From: a bacterium
GTDB lineage: Bacteria > Planctomycetota > UBA1135 > UBA2386
Length of the DNA stretch: 64,000 bases
Direction of reading: 5' to 3'
Assembly: GCA_030432695.1 (NCBI GenBank)
Contig: JAUILN010000011.1
Span: forward strand, 152,950 to 216,949
The notes below the pieces were generated by a model. That model was not told where the DNA came from. It did no database searches and worked only from the letters and a program-made list of their open reading frames with translations. This document shows positions 3,442-32,916 of the stretch, piece after piece. The stretch's first letter is position 1; each line of letters starts with the position of its first letter. The position numbers and the translations under genes are program-made.

Positions 3442-6393
3442 ATGCACCCCGAGAAGCCCGCGACCGACCCACTCGAAGCCCTGCAGCAGCAGGCCGGCTT
3501 CGTGCGCCGCCTGGCGCGCGAGTTCCTGCGCGACGCCGACCTCGCCGACGACGTGGCCCAGGAGACCGCGCTGGCCGCGATGCACGCGGGTTCGACGCCC
3601 CGGAGCGTCGCGGCCTGGACCGGCGGTGTGGTGCGCAACGTCGCCGCCCGCCTGCGCCGTGACCGCCGACGGAGCAGTCGCCGGGAAGCCCTGGTCGCCC
3701 GCCCCGAAGCCCAGCCCTCGACCGTCGACCAGCTCGCCCGCGAGGAGTCGCTGCGCAGCGTCACCGACGCGGTGCTCGCCCTGCCGCAGCCGTACCGGGC
3801 GACGGTGCTGGCGCGGTTCTTCGAGGACCTGCCACCGCGGGAGATCGCCGCGCGGGATCGCGTGCCGGTCACCACGGTGAAGAGCCGGCTACGCCGCGGG
3901 CTCGCGCTCCTGCGCACCGAACTCGACGGCGAGCACGGCGGCGACCGGCAGGCCTGGGCCCTGCCACTGGCTGGGCTCGCGGGTCTCGATCCGGTGGCGC
4001 TCGGGCTCGCGGCCGGCGGCAGCGCTTCGGCTTCGGCCGCCTCCACGTCCACGCTGACCGCCATGACCTGGATCGCTGTCGTGAAGACCAAGACCACCGC
4101 CCTCACATTCGCCGCCCTCGGCATTCTGACGATTCTCGGCGCCTGGGCGCTCGCCCGCTCCGGATACGGGGAAGGCAGTTCCGAGATCCCGACCCGGACA
4201 CCGCTGGCGGGCACCTGGAACGTGGCCGACGAGGCCGAGCCGTCGGCCCGCGCGAGTTCCGCGGCCCCGACGCGACGCGAGGTCTCACTTGCCGCGGACG
4301 TCGCACCGCCGGAGCGTGGCAGCGTCGTCGCCACGCTCCGCTGGCGCGACGGCTCGCCGGTCCCCGCGGCGAAGGTCCGCATGAGTCCGTGGGGCGCCGA
4401 ACAAGCGTTCCTCGCGGCGCAGGTCTCGACCACGGACGAGGCGGGCGTGGTCCGCTTCGACGACGTCGCGCCGGGCACGGTCACGGTCTACGGGCATCGC
4501 TCGGGTGGTGCCCGAGGCACCCTCGAAGCCGGGGGCGTACTGCATCTCGACGTCACGCTCGAGGATGGCATGACGGTGCACGGCACGGTCATCGACGACC
4601 TCGGGCGGCCGGTGCCCCAGGCCAGCATCGTGCTCGCCGGCGGCGACGACAGCCTGGTCGTCACCTACACCGACGCGGCGGGTCGCTTCGAGCTGCGCGG
4701 CGTGACCGACCAGCGGGAACTCGGGGCACGGGCTCCCGGCTACGTGCCGGCCGCCGGCGTGCGGGTCCGCGGCAGCGACCGCGAGCAGAAGCAGGTCGAC
4801 TTCGTGCTCGGGTCCCGCGGATCCGGACTGCGGCTGGAGATCGTCGACGCCGACCACGACCGACCGCTGCCGCACGCGAAGGTGCGGATCGACATGGGCT
4901 CGTTCGTCGATGGTGGCGGCCCACCTGGCTACACCGGAACGGCGGACGAGCATGGCGTCTTCGAAGCCCGGAGCGTCAACCCCGGGACCAGCGAGGTCCA
5001 GGTTGCGGTCGCCGGCTACGCGCCGTGCAAGATCGAGGTGCCGATCGCCGCAGGCCACACCGAAACGCTCCGAATCCCGCTGCGGATCGGCGCCACCGTA
5101 GCTGGCATGGTCCGCGACCAGGAGGGCACCCCGTTGGAGGGCGTGTTGGTGATGCATGGTTCGTACGGCGGCCTGAGTTCCCGCTCGACCCGGACCGACC
5201 CGGCCGGCCGCTACCGGTTGACCGGACTCCCACTCGGAACATTCGCCCTCGGAGCCACCGCCCGGAACGTCGGCCAGGCCTCGGTCGAACTGACCGGTGC
5301 GCTGGGCGAAGTCCTGGAACACGACTTCGTCCTCGATGCCGGCCGCGTGCTGAAGCTGCGGCTCGCGGACGACCGCGACCGACCGTTGGTCGGCTGGATG
5401 GTCAACGCTCTGGGTCCGGAACATCCCGGCAAGCGACGGTTCCGTGGCCAGGCGATCAGCGACGCAAAGGGTCGAGTGCGCATCGCGAACTGCCCCGCGG
5501 ACCCGCTCGAACTACAGGCGATGGACCGCAGCCGGGCCATCGTGTTCGTGCACGCGCAGCGCTCGGGTGTCGAGGCCGGAACCGGGGAGGAATTCGCCTG
5601 GGTGATCCCGCGAGCAGAACAGCCGAGTGCGTTCGTAGCTGGACGCGTCGTGGGCAGCTACGGAGACCCGGCTCCCGCACGACTGCTGCTCGGCAGGCTG
5701 GACCCGCCCGACACCGACGCGCCACGCGCACGTGGCAACAGCCACATCGAGACCGGGGACTTCCGCATCGGCCCCCTGGTGCCGGGTCGCTACGAGATCA
5801 GCGCGGAGCGTGAAGACGAGGGGCTCCGCTCCGACCCGGTCCGGTTCACGCTGACAGCCGACGAGGAACTCCGGCTCGACGACCTCGTCCTCGCGCCGCC
5901 CGGCACGCTTCGACCGCGCTTCGAGATCGAAGGGACGCTGGAGGGTTCGCCGTGGGTCACGGTAGGAACCGACGGGCCCCTCCTGATCGGTAAGCACGGC
6001 TCGCGGCTCGACCATTGGCCGGAGCACGGCGTCCCGCTACCCGCCGGTCGCTACCGCATCCTGATCGCGGGCGGCAATGCCCTGCCCTCGGAGCACAGCG
6101 TCGAGATCACCGCCGGCGAAACCGCGACCCCGACCCTCCGCATCGAGACCGGCACACGCATCCGCTACGAGGCGCGCGACGGCGAGATGCCGGAGAAGCT
6201 GAGTCTCCGTGCCACCGATGGCCAGGGCACCGCACTCGGCGGCGCGACGAAGTTTCCGCGCGAGTGGCCGATGCGCGACTCCTTCGTGGTCCGCCGCGCC
6301 GACGCCTATGCGATCGAGATCGAATCAGCCGATGGGCGCCGCGACGCCGCGCAGTACGTGCCCGGCCAACCCCTCGTCCTCACGCTCCGCTGA
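3442..6393 (+). CDS. membrane-tethered ECF sigma factor with extracytoplasmic carboxypeptidase-regulatory-like domains
   Basis: A 983-residue protein. Residues 1-165 carry sigma region 2 (FVRRLAREFLRDADLADDVA, then QETALAAM) and region 4 (LPQPYRATVLARFFEDLPPR, then EIAARDRVPVTTVKSRLRRG), so this part should bind core RNA polymerase and promoter DNA. A Gly/Ala/Ser linker follows, then one hydrophobic helix near residues 218-237 (ALTFAALGILTILGAWALA). The remaining 740 residues are repeated beta-sandwich modules of the CarboxypepD_reg type, with recurring pattern V-x-G-x-V-x-D...G-x-P-[VL]-x-x-A...T-D-x-x-G-[RV]-[FY] (for example VHGTVIDDLGRPVPQASIVL). Topology would place sigma in the cytoplasm and the modules outside. 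No separate anti-sigma gene is adjacent, so the C-terminal region may itself be the sensor. A paralogue lies at 13800-16586. Confidence 0.85.
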   Translation: MHPEKPATDPLEALQQQAGFVRRLAREFLRDADLADDVAQETALAAMHAGSTPRSVAAWTGGVVRNVAARLRRDRRRSSRREALVARPEAQPSTVDQLAREESLRSVTDAVLALPQPYRATVLARFFEDLPPREIAARDRVPVTTVKSRLRRGLALLRTELDGEHGGDRQAWALPLAGLAGLDPVALGLAAGGSASASAASTSTLTAMTWIAVVKTKTTALTFAALGILTILGAWALARSGYGEGSSEIPTRTPLAGTWNVADEAEPSARASSAAPTRREVSLAADVAPPERGSVVATLRWRDGSPVPAAKVRMSPWGAEQAFLAAQVSTTDEAGVVRFDDVAPGTVTVYGHRSGGARGTLEAGGVLHLDVTLEDGMTVHGTVIDDLGRPVPQASIVLAGGDDSLVVTYTDAAGRFELRGVTDQRELGARAPGYVPAAGVRVRGSDREQKQVDFVLGSRGSGLRLEIVDADHDRPLPHAKVRIDMGSFVDGGGPPGYTGTADEHGVFEARSVNPGTSEVQVAVAGYAPCKIEVPIAAGHTETLRIPLRIGATVAGMVRDQEGTPLEGVLVMHGSYGGLSSRSTRTDPAGRYRLTGLPLGTFALGATARNVGQASVELTGALGEVLEHDFVLDAGRVLKLRLADDRDRPLVGWMVNALGPEHPGKRRFRGQAISDAKGRVRIANCPADPLELQAMDRSRAIVFVHAQRSGVEAGTGEEFAWVIPRAEQPSAFVAGRVVGSYGDPAPARLLLGRLDPPDTDAPRARGNSHIETGDFRIGPLVPGRYEISAEREDEGLRSDPVRFTLTADEELRLDDLVLAPPGTLRPRFEIEGTLEGSPWVTVGTDGPLLIGKHGSRLDHWPEHGVPLPAGRYRILIAGGNALPSEHSVEITAGETATPTLRIETGTRIRYEARDGEMPEKLSLRATDGQGTALGGATKFPREWPMRDSFVVRRADAYAIEIESADGRRDAAQYVPGQPLVLTLR

Positions 6394-6614: not shown

Positions 6615-6658
6615 GAGGGACTGGAGGCGCGAGGGACTGGAGGCGCGAGGGACTGGAG
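6615..6658 (+). repeat. 16-bp tandem repeat, 2.75 copies
   Basis: The unit gagggactggaggcgc occurs perfectly at 6615-6630 and 6631-6646, then partly at 6647-6658. It sits immediately after the stop of the small membrane protein and just upstream of the presumed promoter of the CAP-like gene. It is likely slippage-prone and could vary between strains. Confidence 0.8.
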
Positions 6659-6675
6659 ACACTGACCTCCCTCCG

Positions 6676-6681
6676 TAGGAT
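6676..6681 (+). promoter_or_regulatory. possible -10 element TAGGAT
   Basis: TAGGAT lies 9 bases before ATG 6691, with TGGAGA 16 bases upstream as a weak -35 candidate. If real, the transcript would have almost no leader. Confidence 0.25.
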
Positions 6682-6690
6682 GCCCGCGCC

Positions 6691-8100
6691 ATGCCCTCCC
6701 CCGAGACCCTCCTGCGCAGCGCCCTACCGCTCGGACTGCTCCTCACCGCCGCGATCCCCGCCCAGTCCAAGGCGTGCGGCCGTTACCCGCTCGACGCCGA
6801 CCTGCTCCACCCCGAGCTGGTCGACGGCCTGCCCACCTCGGCGAGCCGCGACGTGTTCCCACCGAACCTCGGCCTGCACGGCAGCCTGCCGACCGACGCA
6901 CAGCTCGAGCCCGGCAAGCGGCCCGGACAGTTCGAGCTGATCCAGGGCCGCAAGAAGAAGAAGGTCGTGCTGCCGGGCATCTTCGAGATCGAGCTGCGGT
7001 TCTCGAAGCGCGAGAGCCGCGAGCACCGGTTCTACCTGCGCGAGTCGTCGGGCCGTTTCCTGCTCCGCTCGGATTCGGGCTGCAACGTGGAGCTGCTCGG
7101 CCACGAGGTCTGGTTCGCCGACCTCGACGCCGACGGTGCCTTCGGCGGCCCGAACGATGGCTGGATCGCCCGCGGACCGCGGGCCAGGCGCTGGGTGGAG
7201 GAGGGCGCCGACAAGGCACTGTTCCAGACCATGGACTCGCCGTTGGAGCTGCCCGACGGCCAGGTGTTCTTCGACGTCGACCCGCGCGGCTTCCACGTGA
7301 ACGTACTGCCGGAGCTGCCCGAGCCGGATCCTGCCGCGGAGTCCGCCGACCGGATGGCACAGATGGAGGCGGCGGTCGAGCTCTGGAACGCGGCGCGGGC
7401 GCGGATCGGCGCCGACCCCGTCGAACTCGACGAGGAGCTTTCGCAGGGCTGCGCCGACCTCGCGGTGTTCAAGGCGATCCATGGCGCGGCGCAGGAGGTC
7501 CGGCCCGGTCTCGCCGGCTTCACCAAGGCGGCGATGAAGGCCTACAGTGTGGCACCGAGCGTGCGGACCCGCGACCCCGTGCTGGCGATCCACGTATGGC
7601 TCGGCGGCTTCAACAACCGCGCGCTGCTCCTCGACCCACGCAACCGCAAGGTCGGGCTGGCGGTCGAGTCCGGCAGCGCGTTCGTCGACACCGTCAATGG
7701 CCGCGGTGCGAAGCGTTTCGATCCGTACGTCTGGCCGCCGGACGCCGCCGCAGGCGTGCCGCTCCACTCCCCGTCCGGTGAGTCGCCGAGCCCGCTGGGC
7801 GACGCGCCATTCGATCCGGACAGCGCACCGCGCTACGGCTACCCGGTGACGCTGACCTTCCCCTCGCCGAACGTCGCCGACGTGCAGGTCGAGCTGCTGG
7901 AGGACGGCAAGTCGATGCCGGTGCGCTTCACCTCGCCCGAGCAGCCCGGCTACCCGTCACGACCCGACAACGCCAACACCGTGTGGATCGTCTCGACGCG
8001 GCCCTTCCGACCCGGCACGGAGTACACCGCCCGCATCCGCTGCACCTTCGCCGACGAGCCCTACACCCGCGAGTGGTCGTTCACGACCGAGGGGAAGTAG
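6691..8100 (+). CDS. secreted CAP/SCP-like domain protein
   Basis: A 469-residue exported protein: the signal peptide (SALPLGLLLTAAIPAQSKAC) has a likely AQ/S cleavage site. An N-terminal beta-rich region of about 200 residues is followed near residue 225 by a helix of CAP/SCP type (VELWNAARARIGADPVELDE, then LSQGCADLAVF). That matches the LNxxRxxxGxxPLxxDxxL...A opening of cysteine-rich secretory/PR-1 domains, with VGLAVESGSAFVDTVNG in the position of the conserved later strand. The C-terminus (YPVTLTFPSPNVADVQVELL up to EYTARIRCTF) looks like an Ig-like strand set. The usual CAP histidine pair is not obvious, so activity cannot be assumed. Its 3' end overlaps the convergent PPK2 gene by 20 bases. 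Confidence 0.55.
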   Translation: MPSPETLLRSALPLGLLLTAAIPAQSKACGRYPLDADLLHPELVDGLPTSASRDVFPPNLGLHGSLPTDAQLEPGKRPGQFELIQGRKKKKVVLPGIFEIELRFSKRESREHRFYLRESSGRFLLRSDSGCNVELLGHEVWFADLDADGAFGGPNDGWIARGPRARRWVEEGADKALFQTMDSPLELPDGQVFFDVDPRGFHVNVLPELPEPDPAAESADRMAQMEAAVELWNAARARIGADPVELDEELSQGCADLAVFKAIHGAAQEVRPGLAGFTKAAMKAYSVAPSVRTRDPVLAIHVWLGGFNNRALLLDPRNRKVGLAVESGSAFVDTVNGRGAKRFDPYVWPPDAAAGVPLHSPSGESPSPLGDAPFDPDSAPRYGYPVTLTFPSPNVADVQVELLEDGKSMPVRFTSPEQPGYPSRPDNANTVWIVSTRPFRPGTEYTARIRCTFADEPYTREWSFTTEGK

Positions 8101-9562
8101 CGGCCTCGAGCTCTTCGGCGGCGAGGCGCAGCACCTCGAGCCGCGCGTGGTGCTTGTCGTCGGCGGCAACCACGTGCCAGGGCGCGACCGAGCCGGTGCG
8201 TGCCAACATCTCGTCGACTGCCGCCTCGTAGGCGCCGCGCTTCTCGCGGTTGCACCAGTCCTCGTCGGTGAGCTTGTGGCGCTTGTAGGCCACCTCGCGC
8301 CGCGCCTCGAACCGCCGCAGCTGCTCGGCGTCCGACAGGTGCAGGAAGAACTTCACCAGCAGGTAGCCGTGCTCGACGAGCTGCCGCTCGAAGTCCTCGG
8401 TCTCGGCATAGGCCCGCTGCCAGTCGGCTTCGCTGGCAAAGCGCTCGACCCGCTCCACCAGCACGCGGCCGTACCAGCTCCGGTCGAAGACCGACACCTT
8501 GCCGCGGGTCGGCAGCCGCCGCCAGAACCGCCACAACCACGGCCGTGACTTCTCGCGCGCGTCCGGCGCGGCGATCGGGAAGATCTTGTAGTGCTGCGCA
8601 TCCATGGCGCGCACCAGCCGTCGGATCGCGCCGCCCTTGCCGGCCGCGTCCCAGCCCTCGAACACGAACACCACGCCGGCCTGCTTCTGGACCGCCTTGC
8701 GGTGCGCGGTGGTGATGCGGGCCTGGTAGTCGTGACGCAGTCGATCGTAGCCAGCCTCCTCGGGCCCCCGCGCGTCGAGGTCGACCTCGGCCAGCTGCGG
8801 GGCGCGCGGCCGGGCGGGAGCGAGTTCGAGCGGTGGCGGCGAAGCATGACTCGCGTCGAGACGGTGCCGGAGCGCCTGGACGATCCGCGTGCCCACTTCG
8901 AGGTCGCGCGCCCGCCGGTCGTCGCCGCGCAGCACGTGCCAGGGCGCCCACTCGGTGTCGGTCTCGCGCAGCACGCGGCGCGCGACGTCGCGGCCCTCGT
9001 CGTAGTGCTTCGCGAGCGCCCACTCCTCCTCCTGCACGGTCCACTTGCCCTTCTTCCGGGCCTTGTCGAGCCGTCGCTCCAGCGTGTCCTTGTCGACGTG
9101 CAGCCAGAACTTGAGGATCAGCGCGCCCTCGGCGGCGAACTGTCGCTCCAGCCGCTGCACGTGCGCGATGCGGGGACCCAGGGTCGCATCGTCGAGTTCA
9201 CCGAACGAACGGCGCGCGATCAGCGACGCGGTCCACGAGCGCCGCACCAGCCAGACCGTCCCGACCGGCGGCAGGTTGAGCCAGTAGCGCCACAGCCACG
9301 GGTAGCCGCTCTCGTGAGCGGTCGGCGCACCGTAGGCGTCGGAGCGCAGGAAGCGGGCGTCGAACCACTCGTGCAGGCGTTCGAACACGTCGTCGCCGCC
9401 GGTGAGGTCGGGGCCGTCGATGCACAGGATCACCGGGAAGTCGCGGTCGGCGAGGTCCTCCTGGGCGCGGAGCAGCGCGGTGCGCAGGGTCAGCTCGTGG
9501 GCGTGGAACTCTTCCTTGGTGATCTTGTCGTCGGGCACGCGCCCTATGGTGGCACGCGCCAT
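8081..9562 (-). CDS. two-domain polyphosphate kinase 2 / polyphosphate:AMP phosphotransferase family
   Basis: A 493-residue protein with two tandem PPK2 domains, the size and layout of class II PPK2 (polyphosphate:AMP phosphotransferase), which makes ADP from AMP using polyphosphate. The second domain has an intact P-loop (GWDAAGKGG, residues 303-311), the lid/catalytic motif DRSWYGRVLVERV (360-372) and KFFLHLSDAEQLRR. The first domain keeps the fold but has a degraded P-loop (DGPDLTGGDD, 49-58) and RRSW instead of DRSWY, as is usual for the non-catalytic N-terminal half. The start at 9562 is chosen because the ORF upstream is antisense to the next gene; GTG 9538 is an alternative that would avoid start overlap. 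Cytoplasmic, nucleotide and phosphate metabolism. Confidence 0.88.
   Translation of the reverse strand: MARATIGRVPDDKITKEEFHAHELTLRTALLRAQEDLADRDFPVILCIDGPDLTGGDDVFERLHEWFDARFLRSDAYGAPTAHESGYPWLWRYWLNLPPVGTVWLVRRSWTASLIARRSFGELDDATLGPRIAHVQRLERQFAAEGALILKFWLHVDKDTLERRLDKARKKGKWTVQEEEWALAKHYDEGRDVARRVLRETDTEWAPWHVLRGDDRRARDLEVGTRIVQALRHRLDASHASPPPLELAPARPRAPQLAEVDLDARGPEEAGYDRLRHDYQARITTAHRKAVQKQAGVVFVFEGWDAAGKGGAIRRLVRAMDAQHYKIFPIAAPDAREKSRPWLWRFWRRLPTRGKVSVFDRSWYGRVLVERVERFASEADWQRAYAETEDFERQLVEHGYLLVKFFLHLSDAEQLRRFEARREVAYKRHKLTDEDWCNREKRGAYEAAVDEMLARTGSVAPWHVVAADDKHHARLEVLRLAAEELEAATSPRS
9545..9550 (+). promoter_or_regulatory. possible -10 element TATGGT
   Basis: TATGGT lies 10 bases upstream of ATG 9561 and inside the 5' end of the divergent PPK2 gene. 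It fits the TAnnnT pattern seen before other genes in the window; the -35 is unclear. Confidence 0.25.
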
Positions 9563-10649: not shown

Positions 10650-10830
10650 CCGCGGTTGATCCGAGCGAAGTCCCACTCGACTCCGCACTTGCCTCGCCAT
10701 GAGCTGTTCCGCGCCAGACAGGTGACTTTGGGAGATCGTGCGTGTGCCCTCTCGGCGTGCGGCACTGCGACGTAGCCGCGGCGGGTCGATCGACCCGCTT
10801 CGTTCCTCGTCGCACAAGGAGTTCCCCCCC

Positions 10831-12234
10831 GTGAGTCGTTCCCTGTTCCTCGCCGCGGCCCTCGCCGCCACCACCTCGCTCGCCGCCCAAGAGTCCTACT
10901 GGATCGCCAACCGCGGATCCCTGGACGTCATGGAGATCTCCGCCTGCGGTGAGGTGCTCAACACCTACCCGCTCGGCATCCCGCTCCGCTCCGCCCACCT
11001 CGCGCCCGACGGCAAGATCTGGGTGGTCCGTTCCGGCAGCACCCAGTTCGACATCCTCAACCCGGACGGGACCGTCGCCGTCTCCCCGAACGGCGCGCTC
11101 GGCTCGCCCTACGAGATCGCCTTCGACGCGGCGGGCCATGCCTGGGTCTCCGGCGGCACGGGCGTCGAGGAGTTCGACGCCAACGGCAACTCGCTCAATA
11201 CCTACCCCCTCACCGCGGGTGCCCCGCTCGGCATCACCGTCGACGCCGACGGCAACAAGTGGATCGCGCACCGCGTCGGGCCTCCCGGCAGCGTGTCGCG
11301 CATCGACGGGACCACCGGCGCGGTGACCAACATCCCGCTCACCCCCAACTCGCTGATCCTGCCCACCAAGGTCTACGCCGATGCGCGAGGCCCCGGCAAC
11401 TCGAGCCACATCTGGGTGATCGGCGACAACCGCGGCGCCGGCGAGATCCTGGAGCTCGACCCCGCGGGCATGCTCCTGCGGCAGATCATTCCCGATCCGA
11501 GCGGCAGCTTCGGCTCGATCACCGCCGACGTCGATCCGGCCACGGGCGTGGTGCGCAACGTCTACGTCGGCGACTTCCGCAATGGCAACATCTGGACCGT
11601 CGATGCCAGCACCGGGACGTTCGGGCCTCCGACGCTCGGCGGCGCAACGGTCCTCGGCCTGACGACGGGAGGCTTCGGCAACGTCTGGTCGACCGACCGG
11701 ACCTCGGTGGCACTCAACCGACTGGACCCGATGACGCTGAACCAGGAGACCGCGACCACGGTGGGCGCCGGCGTGCAGTCGGCCGTGGCGACCCTGTGGC
11801 AGCACGCCACCGTCGTCGATCCCTTCGGCGATCCCGACGGCGACACCATCCCGAGCTTCCTCGAGATCCAGAACGGCTCATCGCCCTTCGACGCCTGCTC
11901 GACCCCTCGCGCGTCGCTGTCGGTCGAGGGCGCCGCGTCGATCGGCTCGGCCACGGCGCTGCAGCTCAATTCGTCGGGCGGATTCACCGGAATCTACTTC
12001 GGCACCGGCCGCGCAACGCCGCCGCTGACGATTCCTGGCATCGCCTGCACCGGCGGCATCGACCCGATGACCGTGCTGCCGTTGTCGCTGGTCTTCACCG
12101 GAACGTCGACGCTGCCACTGACGATCCCCGCCGACCCGGGCTTGGTGGGCACAACGCTGTACGCGCAAGGCGTCAACCAGCTCACCGGCACGCCGGACAC
12201 GTTCTGCAACACCACCTGCTGGGTCTTCTATTGA
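10831..12234 (+). CDS. secreted Vgb-like beta-propeller protein with recurrent C-terminal module
   Basis: A 467-residue protein. GTG 10831 is preceded by AAGGAG (10816-10821) at a good spacing and yields a signal peptide (VSRSLFLAAALAATTSLAAQ), so it is preferred over the far-upstream in-frame start. The body has streptogramin-lyase-like/NHL-like blades (APDGKIWVVRSG, AAGHAWVSGGTGVEEFDANG, DADGNKWIAHRVG). A DGDTIPSFLEIQ segment resembles a thrombospondin-3/EF-hand-like Ca-binding spacer. The last 110 residues form the module shared by several secreted proteins here (LPLTIPADPGLVGTTLYAQG). It is a tandem paralogue of the next gene. The lytic residues of true Vgb were not verified, so an enzymatic role is not claimed. 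Confidence 0.75.
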   Translation: MSRSLFLAAALAATTSLAAQESYWIANRGSLDVMEISACGEVLNTYPLGIPLRSAHLAPDGKIWVVRSGSTQFDILNPDGTVAVSPNGALGSPYEIAFDAAGHAWVSGGTGVEEFDANGNSLNTYPLTAGAPLGITVDADGNKWIAHRVGPPGSVSRIDGTTGAVTNIPLTPNSLILPTKVYADARGPGNSSHIWVIGDNRGAGEILELDPAGMLLRQIIPDPSGSFGSITADVDPATGVVRNVYVGDFRNGNIWTVDASTGTFGPPTLGGATVLGLTTGGFGNVWSTDRTSVALNRLDPMTLNQETATTVGAGVQSAVATLWQHATVVDPFGDPDGDTIPSFLEIQNGSSPFDACSTPRASLSVEGAASIGSATALQLNSSGGFTGIYFGTGRATPPLTIPGIACTGGIDPMTVLPLSLVFTGTSTLPLTIPADPGLVGTTLYAQGVNQLTGTPDTFCNTTCWVFY

Positions 12235-12354: not shown

Positions 12355-13755
12355 ATGACCCCGCCCCTCCGGCGCATCGCAGCCGCCGCGCTGCTGTCCC
12401 TCCCCCTCACCGCCCAGGACGCCTACTGGATCGCCAACCTCGACAGCAACGAGGTCCGGCAGATCGCGCCGACCGGTGAGGTGCTCCAGACCGTCGACCT
12501 CGGCCACCGCCTCACCGGCGCGCACCTGGCCCCGGACGGCAAGGTCTGGGTGATCCGCTACTCCACCAACCGCTTCGACATCCTGCGAGCGGACGGCAGC
12601 CTGCACGGCTCGCCGACCTTCGCGTTCGTCAGCGCGGCACGGGTCGCCTTCGACGCGCAGGGTCACGCCTGGGTCTCCGGCGACCGCGGCGTGCAGGAGT
12701 TCGACGCCGACGGCCAGCCGCTGCGCGCGATCACGCTCGCGCACGACCACGCGTTCGGCGTGACGATCGACGCCGACGGCAACAAGTGGGTCGCCCACCA
12801 CACCGCGCCACCCTCCTACCTGTCGCGCATCGACGGCATCACCGGCGCGGTCACCGACCACATCCTGTCGCCGAACTCGCAGCTCCGACCGAGCGAGCTG
12901 GTGGCCGACCAGCGCGGGCCGGGCACTCCGGGCCACGTCTGGGTGATCGGCGATGGCGCCGGCGGTGAGGTCATGGAGTTCGACTCGACCGGCCGCTGGC
13001 TCCGCACGCTGCAGCTCGACCCGCTGGGCTCGTTCGGCTCGCTGACCTGCGACATCGACCCGGCGTCCGGCCGGACCCGGCGCGTCCTGGTCGGCGACTT
13101 CCGGAGCGGCAACGTGTGGCGCATCGACGTGCAGACCGGCGCGGCGACCGCGACCCGGGTCGGATCGAGCGCCGTCGGCCTGGCGTTCGGCGACTTCGGC
13201 AACCTCTGGGTCACCAACAGCCTGACCGATCGCCTGCACCGCCACGACGCGGCGTCGCTGGTCCTCGAGACCGAGACCGCGCTCGGAGCCGGGTCGTTCA
13301 GCCCGCTCGGGACGCTGTGGCACCACGCCACCGTGGTCGCGGCCGGCGCCGACCACGACGGCGACGGCGTGCCGAGCCTCGCCGAGATCCAGGGCGGATC
13401 GTCGCCCTTCGATCCGCAGTCGACGCCACGGGTCTCGCTGTCGGTGGAAGGACCGACCGAGCTGGGTTCGACGACCGCACTACGGATCCGCTCGAGCGGC
13501 GCGACCACCGGGGTCTTCCTCGGCACGGCCCGCGCGAGCAGCCCGTTCGGTCTGCCCGGCGTGGCAGGACTCTGCGGGATCGACCCGGGCTCGACGCTGC
13601 CGATCACGCTGGTCGCCACCGGCGACGCGACCTTCCACTTCGGCATCCCGCGCGACGTGCGCCTGCAGGGCGTGACGCTGCTGGCGCAGGCCGTCCACCA
13701 GCAGAGTCGCTTCGACAGCGCATTCAGCAACGTGACCGGCTGGCGGTTCTTCTGA
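12355..13755 (+). CDS. secreted Vgb-like beta-propeller protein, tandem paralogue
   Basis: A 466-residue protein with signal peptide (RRIAAAALLSLPLTAQD) and the same order of blocks as its upstream neighbour: AYWIANLDSNEVRQI, APDGKVWVIRYSTNRFDIL, AQGHAWVSGDRGVQEFDADG, DADGNKWVAHH, then DGDGVPSLAEIQGGSSPFDP and a C-terminal module with FGIPRDVRLQGVTLLAQAV. The similarity is evident along the full length, so the pair arose by tandem duplication followed by clear divergence. The gap of 120 bases and the same orientation allow co-transcription. An AGGA 8 bases upstream of the ATG may serve as ribosome binding site. Likely extracytoplasmic; ligand unknown. Confidence 0.75.
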   Translation: MTPPLRRIAAAALLSLPLTAQDAYWIANLDSNEVRQIAPTGEVLQTVDLGHRLTGAHLAPDGKVWVIRYSTNRFDILRADGSLHGSPTFAFVSAARVAFDAQGHAWVSGDRGVQEFDADGQPLRAITLAHDHAFGVTIDADGNKWVAHHTAPPSYLSRIDGITGAVTDHILSPNSQLRPSELVADQRGPGTPGHVWVIGDGAGGEVMEFDSTGRWLRTLQLDPLGSFGSLTCDIDPASGRTRRVLVGDFRSGNVWRIDVQTGAATATRVGSSAVGLAFGDFGNLWVTNSLTDRLHRHDAASLVLETETALGAGSFSPLGTLWHHATVVAAGADHDGDGVPSLAEIQGGSSPFDPQSTPRVSLSVEGPTELGSTTALRIRSSGATTGVFLGTARASSPFGLPGVAGLCGIDPGSTLPITLVATGDATFHFGIPRDVRLQGVTLLAQAVHQQSRFDSAFSNVTGWRFF

Positions 13756-13799: not shown

Positions 13800-16586
13800 G
13801 TGACCGCCTCGCCCCTCGACCGCGACTTCGCCCGCTACCGGGACTCCGGCGACCCCGACGCACTCGCGCGGGTGTTCGACGCCGCGGCGCCCCGCCTGCT
13901 GCTGGTCGCCACGCAGCTCGCACCGCGCGATGCGGAGGACCTGCTGCAGTCCACGTTCGTCCGTGCGATCCAGCGCGCCGCTGCCTGGGATCCGGAGCGA
14001 CCGCTGTGGCCGTGGCTCACCGGCATCCTCGCGCACGAGGCGCGCAACCTGCACCGTCGCCAGGCGCGGCAGCCCGACCCGGAGCGTCTGCGGGATACGA
14101 CGAGTCCTTCTCCGGAGGAGTTGGCGAGTCGCAACGAGACCGTCGCGAGCATCGCTCGGGCCGTCGACCGCCTGCCGGAGCCCTTCGCGCAGGTGGTCGC
14201 GCTGCGATTGGTCCACGACCTCGAGCCGGTGCAGATCGCGCGGGTGCTCGGCGTGCCGGCGGAGACGGTCCGCTCGCGGCTGCATCGCGGACTGGCGCGG
14301 TTGCGCCTGGTGCTGCCTGCTGGAGTGGCGGGACTCTCCGCACTCGCGGCGACACGCCCGGCGCTGGCGGCGATCCGCGACCGCGTGCTCGCCGAGTCGG
14401 TCCGCGCCCGGCCCTACCTGCCACCCACTGCGACGACCACCGCGCCGGTGCTCGGAATCACGATGACCAAGAAGCTCGTTGCCGTCGTGGTGCTCGCCGC
14501 GACCGCGTGGTTCGCGTGGCCCCTGCTCCGTGCGTCGGAAGACGCCGCAACGCGACCCGACGCGGTGGCTCAGGCCGATTGCGCCGGAGCAGCCGCGAGT
14601 TCCGATGGGAGGACTGCAGGCCAGCCCGACCGGCAGGTCGCGGTCGCCGAGCAGGTGGAGCGCCACGTCGTCGGACCTGGAGCCGGATGGTGGCTCGACG
14701 GAACCGTCCGGACCGATGCGGACGGCGACGGCCCCGTGCCTGCGCACTCGGCAGCAGGAGCCACGGTCGAAGCCTTCGTGTCACGCGGCCAACTGGAGGA
14801 ATCGCTGGGCACCACGTCCACCGACGACGACGGGAGCTACCGCATCGCCCTCCACCCGATCCTGAAGCTGAGCGCGATCCAACGCCACACCGCGCGGGTC
14901 CGGGTGGTCGCATCGCTCGCCGGCCAACGGATCGGCCATGCGCCAGCCACGCCCGAGGACCTGGACCCCGGCACACCGCTGCGTGCCGATCTGATCCTCG
15001 AGCCGGAACGCGGTGTGGCCATCGGTCGAGTACTCGACGCGGACGGCCGGCCCGTAGCTGCCGCGCACGTGTTGCTCCGCTGGGCGAATCCCAACGGCGG
15101 CCTGTTCAGCGCGGTCGATCACGACAGCGCGACCGACGTCGACGGCACGTTCCGCATCGACTTCGACCACGACGGCGAGCACTCGCTGTCGGTGGGCTCC
15201 GCGACCGCGGGGCAGGCGTGGGTGCCGCCGCTGGATCTGTCCGCGGACGGCACGCACGACTTCGGCGACGTGGTGCTCCAGCGCGACGGCGGGGAGCTGG
15301 CCTTCCGCCTGGTGATGTGTGACGGCACTCCGGCAGGTGGATTGGACTTCGACGTGCGTGCGGTCGAGGAGCGGCAGCTCGCGCTGATCCACACGCCGGC
15401 GGTATCGACCGGGCCGGGGAAGGGTCCCAGGGCGGTGCTCGGCCAGCCCGCGCCGATCCCCACGGTGAGCGACGGCGTGCTCGAAAGGATCACGCACTTC
15501 TCCAGCACGACACTGCCCGACGGGACGTTCCGCACCTTTCGCATGCAGGCGGGACGCTACCTGGTGAGGGTGCGTGACCGGTTCCGAGGCGAGCAGGAGT
15601 TCGAGGTCGAGACCGGCGCCATGCAGCACGAACTCGAATTGGCAGGACAGCTTCTGACCGTGCAGATCCATGAGCGCGGCTCGGGACCGCTACCCGGCGC
15701 GCAGCTCTCGGCCCATGCGTATCCGTCTCCTGAAGCGGCCGACGACCAGGAGAGCCGCACCGACCTGATGAGCGCCGTCACGCTCGACGACTGCGCCGCC
15801 GCCTGCACATTCCTGGCCCCGTGGAACTCGGCCTGGGTCTTCCACTGCGGTCTGGACGGCGCCATGCCGGTCGCCGTGCAGCACGTGGCCGAACCAGGCA
15901 TCGGGCACGCGACCGTGGTCCTCGAACTCGAACCACTGGTCCGGATCGGCAACATCCAGTTCGAGTTCCTGCCAAGGGGCGCCGCGCCACCTGCGACCAC
16001 CACCGCGCGCCTGCGGTTCGCCGGCATGGACGCGTATGCGATCGCGGACTACACGTTCGACCCGCGCATGACCCGCACCTGGTCAGTACCCGCCGGCGAC
16101 TGGCAGTTGGAACTCCAACCCGGTGAAGCCCTGTTCGGGCAACACTGCATCCGCGCGATCACCGAGCGTGTCCAGGTCCGCCACGGCGAGACCACCCGGG
16201 TCCGCGTCCCGATCGAACGACTCGGGCTCGTCGCCGTGCGCCTGACCGGGACACCGCCCGAGTCCGGAGTCTGGCGTGACGTCCGCGCGACCCTCGACGA
16301 CGGCAGCGGTCCGCGCGAGGAGGCGGGGTTCGTGCTGGTCGAGGACCCGCCCGAGAAAGTCAGCGAACGCGACGGCGAGCTTCGGCCGGCAATCCTGTCG
16401 ACGACATGGCAAGGAGTGCCATACCGCACGCTGCGTCCCGACACCCTCACCGTCCTCCGACTTCCGGTCCGCCCCGGCAACGTCGCCCTCGCGCTCTGCG
16501 CCAAGGACTACGCGACCGTCTTCCGTACCGTGCAGGTGCGCGCCGGTGAAGTGACGGTCGTCGAGATCCCGATGCAGCGCGAGTGA
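13800..16586 (+). CDS. membrane-tethered ECF sigma factor with extracytoplasmic beta-sandwich region (paralogue)
   Basis: A 928-residue protein from GTG 13800, the only start in frame after the preceding stop at 13755. Sigma region 2 spans DPDALARVFDAAAPRLLLVA, then DAEDLLQSTFVRAIQRAA and WPWLTGILAHEARN; region 4 is LPEPFAQVVALRLVHDLEPV followed by QIARVLGVPAETVRSRLHRG. A membrane helix (KKLVAVVVLAATAWFAWPLL, about 224-243) follows a proline/threonine linker. The remaining 680 residues are extracytoplasmic beta domains with CarboxypepD_reg-like signatures (GRVLDADGRPVAAAHVLLRW, DVDGTFRIDF, LPDGTFRTF). The layout is the same as at 3442-6393, but the two are quite divergent and this copy has fewer clear repeats. 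It follows the tandem propeller pair by 44 bases, so it might sense or control those neighbours; that is inference. Confidence 0.82.
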   Translation: MTASPLDRDFARYRDSGDPDALARVFDAAAPRLLLVATQLAPRDAEDLLQSTFVRAIQRAAAWDPERPLWPWLTGILAHEARNLHRRQARQPDPERLRDTTSPSPEELASRNETVASIARAVDRLPEPFAQVVALRLVHDLEPVQIARVLGVPAETVRSRLHRGLARLRLVLPAGVAGLSALAATRPALAAIRDRVLAESVRARPYLPPTATTTAPVLGITMTKKLVAVVVLAATAWFAWPLLRASEDAATRPDAVAQADCAGAAASSDGRTAGQPDRQVAVAEQVERHVVGPGAGWWLDGTVRTDADGDGPVPAHSAAGATVEAFVSRGQLEESLGTTSTDDDGSYRIALHPILKLSAIQRHTARVRVVASLAGQRIGHAPATPEDLDPGTPLRADLILEPERGVAIGRVLDADGRPVAAAHVLLRWANPNGGLFSAVDHDSATDVDGTFRIDFDHDGEHSLSVGSATAGQAWVPPLDLSADGTHDFGDVVLQRDGGELAFRLVMCDGTPAGGLDFDVRAVEERQLALIHTPAVSTGPGKGPRAVLGQPAPIPTVSDGVLERITHFSSTTLPDGTFRTFRMQAGRYLVRVRDRFRGEQEFEVETGAMQHELELAGQLLTVQIHERGSGPLPGAQLSAHAYPSPEAADDQESRTDLMSAVTLDDCAAACTFLAPWNSAWVFHCGLDGAMPVAVQHVAEPGIGHATVVLELEPLVRIGNIQFEFLPRGAAPPATTTARLRFAGMDAYAIADYTFDPRMTRTWSVPAGDWQLELQPGEALFGQHCIRAITERVQVRHGETTRVRVPIERLGLVAVRLTGTPPESGVWRDVRATLDDGSGPREEAGFVLVEDPPEKVSERDGELRPAILSTTWQGVPYRTLRPDTLTVLRLPVRPGNVALALCAKDYATVFRTVQVRAGEVTVVEIPMQRE

Positions 16587-29292: not shown

Positions 29293-32217
29293 ATGACCGA
29301 GCACCCGGATCTCCCCGCACCCGACCGCAACGAGCCCGAGCCGCAGCTCTCGCGCCTCGCCGACGCGATCGACGCCTACCTGGAGCGCTCGGGAGACGGC
29401 GCACTGTCCGACTCGGCGCTGCTCGACCAGCATTCCGATCTCAGCGAGTTCCTCGGCCCGATGCTCGACGAACCGAGCGACGTCGACCCGAGCCAGCCCG
29501 AGTCGATCGGCGGCTACGTGATCGAACGCGAGGTCGGCCGCGGCGGGATGGGGATCGTCTACGAAGCCGTCCACGAGACCCTCGGCCGCCGCGTCGCGCT
29601 CAAGGTCCTGCCGGTGCTGCTGTCGGTGTCGCCGCGGCGCATCGAACGCTTCCTCCGCGAGGCCCGCGCGGTGGCGAAGCTCGAGCATCCCAATCTGGTG
29701 CGCATCCACGAAGTCGGCGAGGCGCAGGGCACCTGGTTCTTCGCAATGGAGCTGGTGCCCGGCCAAAACCTCCGCGAGGCCTTCGCGGCGGTGCGCGACC
29801 GGGTCGGCCGCGACCCGCGTCGCTTCGACGGCCACGCCGCGCTCGGCATCGGCGGCTGCCGGGACTGGCACGACGAGGTCGCCGAACTCGGCGCCAGCCT
29901 CGCCGACGCGCTGGCCTGCGCGCACCGCGCCGGGCTGGTCCACCGCGACGTCAAGCCGCACAACGTGCTGGTCGGCGCCGACGGCCGCGCAAGACTGGTC
30001 GACTTCGGTCTCGCCAAGGACCTGGAGGACGAGAGCCTCACCCACAGCGAGGACTTCGCCGGCACCCCGCACTACGCCTCCCCCGAGCAGATCGACCCGC
30101 AGGGCCCCAACCTCGACGGCCGTGCCGACGTGTTCGCACTGGGCACGATGCTCTACGAGCTGCTGGCGTGGCGGCGTCCGTTCGACGGCGCGACCACCGA
30201 GGAGATCCTGCACGCGATCCTCACCGAGGAACCGAAGCCGCTCAGGGCGCTGGCGCCGGCGGTGCCGGCCGACCTGGAGACGGTCGTCCTGCGCGCGCTC
30301 GAGAAGGACCGCGACTGCCGCTATCCCTCCGCCGACGAGCTGGCCGACGACCTGCGGCGCTTCCGCCAGGGTGCGGCGATCCATGCCCGTCCGGTGACCG
30401 CGCGGCGCCGCCTGTTGCGCTTCGCGAAACGGCACAAGGGCGCCAGCGCCGCGATGGTGCTGGCCTTCGGCCTGTTCGTCGTGGCTCCCACGATCGGCCT
30501 GTTGGTCGTCGACGCCAAGAACCGTGAGCTGATCGCCGAGCGCGACCGCGCCAACCGCCTCGCCGAACAGGCGCGCGCGGCGGTCGATCGACTGTTCTTC
30601 CGGGTAGCCGAGCAGGAGCTGCCCGATACCCCGCACAACCAGGAGTTCCGCCGCGCCCTGCTGGCCGACGCGGTGGGGTTCTACGGTCGCCTCCGCGAGG
30701 ACTTCCCGGACGATCCCGACCTGCAGCGCCTCGAACTCCGCGCCCGAACCAACTTCGCGACCGCTGCGATCGAACTGGAGCGCCACGGCGAGGCGATCGC
30801 CCAACTCGATGCGCTGGTCGACGGGCTCGACTCGTCGGATGCACCGCCCGAGGAGCTGCTCCAGCTCGCCGGAGCACTGGCCGACCGGGGCATCAGCCGG
30901 ATCGTCCTCGGCGATCGGACGGCCGGTGGGCGGGACCTCGGGCAAGCCGAACAGCTTTGCGCTCGGGTCGCGGAACTCGGGAACCCCCGCGGACGCGTGA
31001 CCGACCGCGCGCGCGCAGTCGCCGCCCGGATCGCGATGCTTCGCGTGCGCAACCACGCGCTGGCCGAAGGTACTGACGTCGACAGGGTGCTGGCCGGCGC
31101 GCTCGACACGCTCGATCGCCTGCCCGAACCGGAGCGCAGCGAACCGGAGGTCCTGATGGACGAGGTCAGCATCCTGCTGACCCAGGGCGACCGCGCGCGG
31201 GCGGTCGGTCGACTCGAAGACGCCGAACGGCTCCTGTCCCGCGCGGAAGACACGCTGCCGGCGACCAGTGGACGACGCACCCGGCTGCGCTCGCTGCGCG
31301 CGTCACTCCACCGCGAGCGCAGTTCGCTGCGCACGGCGCAGGCTCGTTTCCCCGACGCCGCACGCGAGCTCGGTCTCGCCATGCAGCTGCACCGCGCCCT
31401 GCACACCGACTTCCCCAACGACGACGGCATCCTGTTCGATCTGGCGTCGGCCGGAGAAGCTGCCGCCCGCGCCGAGCTCAACGCACAGCGCCGTCACGAG
31501 GCCCGCGACTACGCGCACGAAGCCCGCCGGGACGCCGAGAAACTTCGCACCCGACTCGGCGGGCGGAGCACCGGGAGTTCGGTGAACGTCGATCCCCTGT
31601 GGGCTCGCGTGCTCGGCACCTGGGCGCTGGTCGAAGGGCAGCTCGAAGCACCGGACGTCGCCACGGTGATCGCAGCGCACGAGGAGAGCGAAACGCTGCT
31701 GCGCGCGATGCTCGCCACCGGCCCGACGGCCCAGGTCTGGCGCTCGCTCGGCGCCGACCTGCACAACCACGCCTTCCTGCGCTTCCGGGTCCGCGTCGGG
31801 ACCGATGCCGAACTCGCCGAGCTGCTCGACGAAGCGATCGCTGCCCAACGCGAAGCGCTGCGCCTCGACCCCGAGATCGCGATCGCCCGCGAGTTCCTGC
31901 TCAACCACCTGGAGCTCCGTTCCGAGTGCGCCTACCGCTCGCGCGACCTGGAGTCGATGGCCCACCACCTCCTCGAGGCCGTGCCCGTCAGCCCGACTCC
32001 CGCCCGGGACCTCGGCGTCGCGGTGCGCATGAGCCGCTGCCTCGCCGCCGGCCTGCACCCCGAGGGCCAGCTCGGCCGCCACTGCCGAGAGGCCGCGGTG
32101 GACCTCCTGCAACGAGCGCTGGACGCCGACCCGACCCTCCGCCGACAGCTGCAGAACCCGACCTTCGCGCCGCTGCACGCCGAGCCGCGCTGGGCCGCGC
32201 TGGCCGACGGCAACTGA
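29293..32217 (+). CDS. membrane Ser/Thr protein kinase with helical repeat sensor region
   Basis: A 974-residue Hanks-type kinase. The N-terminal 70 residues are acidic and helical; the kinase domain starts with GYVIEREVGRGGMGIVYEA, Lys104 in VALKVLP, HRDVKPHN (His217-Asp219), DFGLAK, and TPHYASPEQ in the P+1 region. A charged insertion of roughly 25-30 residues sits between the hinge and the catalytic loop. One membrane helix (AAMVLAFGLFVVAPTIGLLV, about 386-409) leads to some 560 residues of helical TPR-like repeats outside the membrane or in the periplasm. The ECF sigma gene follows 72 bases downstream, which is the planctomycete kinase-sigma pair; kinase phosphorylation of the sigma factor is a reasonable inference. 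Confidence 0.92.
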   Translation: MTEHPDLPAPDRNEPEPQLSRLADAIDAYLERSGDGALSDSALLDQHSDLSEFLGPMLDEPSDVDPSQPESIGGYVIEREVGRGGMGIVYEAVHETLGRRVALKVLPVLLSVSPRRIERFLREARAVAKLEHPNLVRIHEVGEAQGTWFFAMELVPGQNLREAFAAVRDRVGRDPRRFDGHAALGIGGCRDWHDEVAELGASLADALACAHRAGLVHRDVKPHNVLVGADGRARLVDFGLAKDLEDESLTHSEDFAGTPHYASPEQIDPQGPNLDGRADVFALGTMLYELLAWRRPFDGATTEEILHAILTEEPKPLRALAPAVPADLETVVLRALEKDRDCRYPSADELADDLRRFRQGAAIHARPVTARRRLLRFAKRHKGASAAMVLAFGLFVVAPTIGLLVVDAKNRELIAERDRANRLAEQARAAVDRLFFRVAEQELPDTPHNQEFRRALLADAVGFYGRLREDFPDDPDLQRLELRARTNFATAAIELERHGEAIAQLDALVDGLDSSDAPPEELLQLAGALADRGISRIVLGDRTAGGRDLGQAEQLCARVAELGNPRGRVTDRARAVAARIAMLRVRNHALAEGTDVDRVLAGALDTLDRLPEPERSEPEVLMDEVSILLTQGDRARAVGRLEDAERLLSRAEDTLPATSGRRTRLRSLRASLHRERSSLRTAQARFPDAARELGLAMQLHRALHTDFPNDDGILFDLASAGEAAARAELNAQRRHEARDYAHEARRDAEKLRTRLGGRSTGSSVNVDPLWARVLGTWALVEGQLEAPDVATVIAAHEESETLLRAMLATGPTAQVWRSLGADLHNHAFLRFRVRVGTDAELAELLDEAIAAQREALRLDPEIAIAREFLLNHLELRSECAYRSRDLESMAHHLLEAVPVSPTPARDLGVAVRMSRCLAAGLHPEGQLGRHCREAAVDLLQRALDADPTLRRQLQNPTFAPLHAEPRWAALADGN

Positions 32218-32289: not shown

Positions 32290-32916
32290 GTGACGCCCGT
32301 CTCCCGTACCCCGTCCGACTCGAGCGACGACCGGGAACTGCTCCGTCGGGCCCGCGCCGGCGACCGCGCCGCGCTGCACACCTTGGTTCTGCGCCACGCC
32401 GACTGGCTCCGCGCCGTCGTCCGCCGCCGCCTGCACCCCTCGCTGCGCCGCGAGTTCGACAGCGCCGACATGCTGCAGGACGTGATGGTCGGTCTCCTCA
32501 AGACCACCGCCCTGCAGACCGCCAAGGACCCGGACCACTTCAAGGCACTGCTGGCCCGCGCGGTCGAACGCGACGTCCTCGACGCGCTCCGTCACGCCGG
32601 TCGTGCTCGCCGGGCCCGCGCGCGCGAACACACCCTGCACGGCGACAGCAGTTGGGCCGCGCGGCCGCCGCGCGACTCGGTGACGCGGCCCAGCCAGCAC
32701 GCGATCCGCGACGAGCGGGTCGCCTGGATCCGCCTGGCGATGCAGCGCTTGGCGCCCGCCGAACGCGAGATCCTCAAGCTGCGGGTCTGGGAAGGCCTCG
32801 AGTTCCAGCAGATCGCCGAGCGGCTGGAGCTGTCGCCGGACGCGACGCGGATGCGGTTGAACCGGGCGCTGAAGCGGCTGGCGCAGACGATCGAGGCGTT
32901 GAAGGCGCGGGGGTGA
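32290..32916 (+). CDS. ECF sigma factor paired with Ser/Thr kinase
   Basis: A 208-residue sigma-70 family factor from GTG 32290. Region 2: LRRARAGDRAALHTLVLRHA and FDSADMLQDVMVGLLKTTAL (DxxDxxQ-like core binding). Region 4: LAPAEREILKLRVWEGLEFQ followed by QIAERLELSPDATRMRLNRA. There is no C-terminal extension and no anti-sigma neighbour; instead it directly follows the kinase gene. Kinase-adjacent ECF factors (for example the EcfP-PknT pair described in Vibrio) are switched on by phosphorylation in region 2, and the same logic may apply here. Cytoplasmic. Confidence 0.9.
   Translation: MTPVSRTPSDSSDDRELLRRARAGDRAALHTLVLRHADWLRAVVRRRLHPSLRREFDSADMLQDVMVGLLKTTALQTAKDPDHFKALLARAVERDVLDALRHAGRARRARAREHTLHGDSSWAARPPRDSVTRPSQHAIRDERVAWIRLAMQRLAPAEREILKLRVWEGLEFQQIAERLELSPDATRMRLNRALKRLAQTIEALKARG

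Follow-up and report, generated by a model that had tools for sequence, protein, structure and literature searches.

The closest described relatives of the gene studied here are ECF sigma factors in which the sigma factor and a membrane part belong to one protein. IutY of Pseudomonas putida (ECF243) is a sigma factor fused to a membrane anti-sigma factor, and the part of PMC8999054 that deals with it describes its activation by proteolysis. The same part reports that proteolytic activation has been proposed for ECF48, ECF52 and ECF53 (SCO4117, Streptomyces coelicolor), actinobacterial proteins that join a sigma factor, one or several C-terminal helices and an outside domain, that carry a zinc-finger anti-sigma domain and for which it mentions no internal start. 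Closer in taxonomy, the relevant sections of PMC8567305 describe planctomycete ECF factors with a large C-terminal extension of the WD40 type, also with no mention of an internal start there, and report that several ECF factors of Tuwongella immobilis came from Triton- or SDS-soluble fractions, that is, from membrane-type ones. Pairs of products from a single frame are documented elsewhere: cheA, infB and ccmM have in-frame internal starts, so that one frame with two starts gives two N-terminal forms, according to the corresponding part of PMC11005335. A literature search that joined ECF sigma factors with the carboxypeptidase regulatory-like domain, and whose scope lay outside the planctomycete surveys of Jogler 2012 and Wiegand 2020, found no publication; another on membrane-tethered, transmembrane or fused sigma factors returned, judging by titles, none about the architecture described below. 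The fused transmembrane plan itself is already known, and what sets the present family apart, to judge from its sequences, is the kind of module found outside, the number of copies in a genome and a probable second translation start.

The gene occupies positions 3442..6393 on the forward strand of the window, the whole stretch of 64,000 nucleotides that was analysed. It starts with an ATG and encodes a protein of 983 aa made up of an ECF sigma factor, a linker, one transmembrane helix and an extension of about 740 residues composed of beta modules. Sigma region 2 (3493..3672, residues 18-77) matches PF04542 Sigma70_r2 with an E-value of 2.6e-7 and sigma region 4 (3754..3912, residues 105-157) matches PF08281 Sigma70_r4_2 with an E-value of 1.3e-9; the Sigma70_r3 and r1 models are absent from the 17 Pfam families that match the protein at E-values up to 1. 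The linker between region 4 and the helix (3934..4098, residues ~165-219) is about 50 residues long, mostly of low pLDDT or disordered, and contains the family motif LDxEHGGDRxAWALPLA. After the sigma factor, exactly one segment reaches a mean Kyte-Doolittle hydropathy (KD) of at least 1.6 over 19 residues, the putative transmembrane helix at 4099..4155 (residues ~220-238, KD 2.03), with the positive charge of VVKTKT ahead of it. Since positive charges precede the helix, the sigma factor would lie in the cytoplasm and, beyond this single helix, the beta modules would lie outside. These modules form a chain of beta sandwiches (4318..6156, residues 293 to ~905), recognized both by Pfam, with CarboxypepD_reg in five stretches (9e-48) plus CarbopepD_reg_2 and Big_1, and by structural modelling. 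The AlphaFold2 model, based on 27 sequences, has a mean pLDDT of 75; its sigma part (residues 10-164) is helical and confident, and pLDDT drops below 50 at residues 190-227 and 235-288. Foldseek matches the helical part with the ECF factor SigL of M. tuberculosis (6dv9_F, 30 percent identity); for the beta part it finds pilins, adhesins and macroglobulins, that is, generic Ig-like stacks.

An earlier note, made from the letters of the window alone, had proposed one continuous frame combining ECF regions 2 and 4 with a single helix, on which the ORF, Pfam and hydropathy now agree, followed by about 740 residues of CarboxypepD_reg-type modules, which the HMM matches and the beta modules of the AlphaFold2 model bear out; the membrane helix on which this proposal was made to depend is present at residues ~220-238 (KD 2.03). 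We infer from these features that the product is an ECF sigma factor anchored in the membrane, with its sensor in the same chain. The possibility that the linker holds an anti-sigma domain of its own was also considered and rejected, as none of the 17 Pfam families found at E-values up to 1 is an anti-sigma family; among other family members, none appeared in the first 25 of 40 and the first 25 of 38 Pfam families. The protein thus resembles IutY in that sigma factor, helix and outside part belong to one chain, from which release would be by cutting, but the extension of IutY serves, as the available part of PMC8999054 has it, as the anti-sigma factor in a cell-surface system for iron, whereas no such domain was found here and the outside modules are CarboxypepD_reg-like, in a family with at least 80 members in a single genome. 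It likewise shares with ECF48, ECF52 and ECF53 the order of sigma factor, C-terminal helix and outside domain described in that source, but not their zinc-finger anti-sigma domain, and with the planctomycete WD40 factors a large C-terminal extension, in this case made of CarboxypepD_reg modules instead of WD40.

The genome that contains the window consists of 10.03 Mb in 37 contigs. Sigma70_r2 was searched in this genome and the best 150 of 291 candidates were scored, all 150 of them over the cut-off; because only these were scored, the family counts for this genome are lower bounds. At least 81 ORFs in the fetched stretches had a sigma match followed by 250 or more residues, with region 2 recognized in 81/81, region r4_2 in 80/81 and CarboxypepD_reg in 74/81. 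One of the 81 (L090), the extension of which looked by eye like another, soluble kind, was set aside before the start tests, and the family is counted as at least 80 members in this genome, two of them in the window. The second window member (13800..16586, forward strand) also has a sigma factor, a transmembrane segment and an extension, GTG 13800 being its likely, although unproven, start. A hydrophobic helix directly follows the sigma factor in 79 of the 80 own-genome members and in 219 of 220 over all samples, compared with 96 of 847 windows of equal length taken inside the extensions.

A first contig scan with the window protein as a single query revealed no relative. Matches to the full protein were found in 21 of 21 genomes of the same order, some of them short sigma matches only. 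A profile over sigma factor, linker and helix was run against 119 genomes of the phylum, the best 20 candidates of each being scored; its best E-value was below 1e-40 in 27 genomes, and many of the matches listed lie in frames of 600-1800 residues; at 1e-20 it matched in 107 of the 119, a level that ordinary sigma factors reach too. A scan of named genomes yielded 46 loci, the best of which all belong to Planctomycetota, the isolate Pla86 among them; the tests described below include 31 ORFs from the loci of this phylum that extend by more than 200 residues beyond the sigma factor. The architecture that the earlier note had suggested looking for elsewhere is therefore found in many copies in the same genome and in similar genes across Planctomycetota. 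The sigma domains of 80 fused and 36 short proteins were compared in a tree, the largest pure clades of which comprise 38 fused sequences including the window gene (support 0.93), 32 fused (0.90), 30 short (0.84) and 7 fused (1.0). As the fused sigma domains form clades of their own, the fusion is old and had one or few origins. A shared ECF promoter motif was not found upstream of the 80 own-genome genes, where GAAC-type hexamers reached a z of 2.1 at most and other hexamers were weakly enriched.

A lysine-rich stretch precedes the helix of these proteins, and a methionine is found 1-6 residues before Lys/Arg in 62 members of a first sample of 111. The 15 nt upstream of such internal ATGs were paired with the anti-Shine-Dalgarno sequence of the 16S rRNA and the duplex energies were averaged; the null distribution was obtained by randomly swapping each codon for synonymous codons at the usage of the gene itself. 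The anti-Shine-Dalgarno sequence CACCTCC is found at a 16S-type 3' end of the same genome (G000:C36:373263), and its pattern was matched in 6 of 13 genomes, that of the window included. For the 62 methionines the mean Shine-Dalgarno (SD) duplex energy was -5.94 kcal/mol, against -4.46 in the synonymous sequences (sd 0.23; z -6.5, 0/500), whereas the 888 other internal methionines of the same genes deviated in the opposite direction (-3.45 against -3.65, z +3.5). Since this sample had suggested the test, the fair ones are the two that followed, from which 4 and 8 duplicate ORFs, respectively, were removed: 51 methionines among 78 new members from other genera gave a z of -4.2 (0/1000), and 20 among 31 new members, most of which belong to other families in the phylum, a z of -4.4 (0/1000). 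All three z values come from members chosen as fused ORFs, which the resampling treats as independent.

The same signal can be read from individual codons. A glycine codon at -5 to -3 was GGA in 30/54, 28/35 and 17/25 cases in samples 1, 2 and 3, respectively, compared with 12.7, 17.2 and 14.7 percent of the glycine codons elsewhere. An SD-like 4-mer, where there is one, ends 8-9 nt before the ATG in 33 of 52 members, and the minimum of the energy profile is located there. Other counts are less favourable to an internal start. Only 34 of the 80 own-genome members have a start-type codon with an SD of -5 or lower, as do 22 of 31 members in one of the other two sets and 37 of 78 in the second. 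Within the own genome, the clade of 38, to which the window gene belongs, has a z of -2.2 (14/1000) and the clade of 32 one of -3.9, while no methionine of this kind occurs in those of 7, 2 and 1. Nor does GC3 dip after the internal start. Taken together, codon choice and spacing suggest that most genes of the family probably make two products, the sigma-helix-sensor chain and the anchored sensor alone. Unlike cheA, infB and ccmM, such genes would lose a whole sigma factor through the second start while the membrane sensor remains, and would do so across a gene family.

Ordinary starts have weaker SD sequences. Signal-type starts of other genes have a mean SD of -3.08 in the own genome (44 genes) and -3.42 in relatives (25), operon-internal starts -4.01 (43) and -3.62 (18), and the first ATGs of 54 fused genes -3.37. 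This weakness agrees with the remark, in the part of PMC5397173 concerned, that SD genes make up a small share in Planctomycetes, and the internal signal therefore stands out; the weak general use of SD can also be read as a possible reason for caution about that signal. A strong in-frame SD would make sense if an internal start cannot use leaderless initiation.

The two window genes differ in this respect. The earlier note had named a restart at the in-frame ATG at 4063..4065 (forward strand), yielding two separate proteins, as evidence that would speak against the single chain. No SD-like sequence lies upstream of this ATG, and the in-frame GTG at 4081..4083 on the same strand, just before KTKT, where relatives start internally, has a weak one (-3.1 kcal/mol against a resampled mean of -0.4), so that the second start in this gene would be at best weak. 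The second member, by comparison, has an internal in-frame ATG (MTKKLVAVVVLA, 14463..14465, forward strand) preceded by CTCGGAATCACG, with a moderate SD of -5.3. A restart before the helix thus finds codon-level support in the family and little in the gene in which it had been considered; and since no stop separates the two halves, it would come in addition to the fused chain instead of replacing it.

These observations can be combined in a scenario that we consider fairly probable as a whole, in which the tethered sigma factor is freed by cutting and a sigma-free form is made jointly from the second start. The sigma factor would be kept at the membrane by its tether, with no anti-sigma domain involved, and would be inactive or less active there. 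A signal on the outside modules would then cause the chain to be cut within or close to the helix, which would free the sigma factor, as for IutY. The second start before the helix, for which most members have codon-level support, would produce an anchored sensor devoid of sigma, and this form may mix or compete with the long one and thereby determine how many of the sensors are joined to a sigma factor. Extended to the phylum, it seems quite probable that these are nested genes that encode a tethered sigma-sensor and use a conserved internal ribosome-binding site to make a sigma-free sensor as well; the ratio of the two would set the response, with at least 80 such channels in one genome and two starts replacing the two-gene logic of sigma and anti-sigma factors. 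If this is true, it represents a compact transmembrane signal path, with sigma factor, anchor and sensor in one frame and a sigma-free sensor from the second start, and it would explain how at least 80 sigma-sensor channels in one genome manage without separate anti-sigma genes. The way in which the long C-terminal extensions of planctomycete ECF factors signal would become directly testable, and annotation pipelines would be listing one protein where two are made.

The main rival to release by cutting is a factor that acts without being released. ToxR and CadC are membrane-anchored factors that work without cutting, and the anchored sigma factor could similarly act while tethered, the outside modules altering its shape or dimer state. 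The lack of an anti-sigma domain in the window protein and the long disordered linker, which leaves the sigma factor free to act, lend this alternative some substance, yet the disordered tail between helix and modules suits cutting too, and IutY, which has been studied best among the fused transmembrane ECF factors, is activated by proteolysis according to the available part of PMC8999054. Action in the tethered state is accordingly regarded as possible, but clearly the less likely of the two.

Setting aside how the sigma factor is released, the proposed second start could itself have another meaning. The internal SD and ATG could be relics of the fusion between a sigma gene and an anchored-sensor gene, the old start of which has not decayed. 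Such an origin of the fusion is plausible, given that sensors with this kind of N terminus also occur as genes of their own in these genomes, but old neutral signals should fade, and GGA is nevertheless 4-5 times enriched in three samples. Moreover, the signal is found at synonymous sites of proteins that are about 20-30 percent identical to each other, with near-identical sigma domains in 1/24090 member pairs, and most fused sigma domains belong to two clades, of 38 and of 32, separate from that of the 30 short ones. We therefore hold the relic interpretation to be unlikely.

An even less likely explanation would make the SD-like sequence a site of pausing, which would let the sigma factor fold before the helix is synthesized, and not a start at all. 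Its position between sigma factor and helix would suit this role, but the excess depends on the codon that follows. When all 220 members were grouped with no start codon required, leaving out 11 members with no Lys/Arg in the zone and 1 with no helix, the excess was strong in the ATG group (n=133, z -7.1, 0/200), slight in the GTG/TTG group (n=31, z -1.8, 9/200) and absent from the group with no start codon (n=44, z -0.3, 71/200). When a start codon was required, 40 members lacking the methionine gave a z of -5.3 (0/200), and valine in the pre-helix zone of those lacking it is encoded by GTG in 20 of 31 cases, against 41.5 percent. The spacing, mostly 8-9 nt, is also that of a start, and GTG or TTG replace ATG. 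As the SD excess is tied to a start codon, with GTG standing in for ATG, it speaks for initiation. Finally, that only two separate products matter and the full-length chain is never made is hardly credible: the strong second start of most members would agree with it, but a stop codon between the halves was found in 0/220 members, a continuity partly built into the sample because members were selected as fused ORFs, and the only other arrangements seen are a split pair (L023) and extension-like ORFs near a short sigma gene (L244).

Both of these arrangements may be sigma/anti-sigma forerunners of the fusion, in that extension-like ORFs are close to a short sigma gene. The L023 locus (minus strand, 6631-8622 in strand coordinates) has a sigma ORF of 195 aa and then an overlapping frame with a helix and an extension resembling those of fused members; L244 is the 1 of 20 short-sigma loci with extension-like ORFs nearby. 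Anchored-sensor ORFs with no sigma ORF nearby number 12 in the fetched stretches, 2 of which begin at the end of a stretch and have no clear N-terminal helix. Anchored sensors that stand alone, with an extension of this type and no sigma gene close by, were observed at L034, L046, L047, L052, L053, L058, L064, L033 and L082. That of a relative (L099) starts MKTKILAATAVLAAG, directly after an unrelated gene, and resembles the internal starts.

Family genes can also be clustered. Ten sigma-helix-extension genes occur in about 50 kb at the loci L027, L028 and L029 (G000 contig C15, 654-705 kb), forming a subgroup with a linker type of its own (LGKVALAGP, SAKS) and neither internal Met nor SD. An arrangement that links kinases with ECF sigma factors is known from planctomycetes, and the window contains one: the gene at 29293-32217 encodes a serine/threonine kinase that has a helix, and a short ECF sigma gene (32290-32916) comes immediately after it. 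Two adjoining genes (10738-12234 and 12355-13755), which directly precede the second family member, encode similar secreted repeat proteins that are possible targets or partners.
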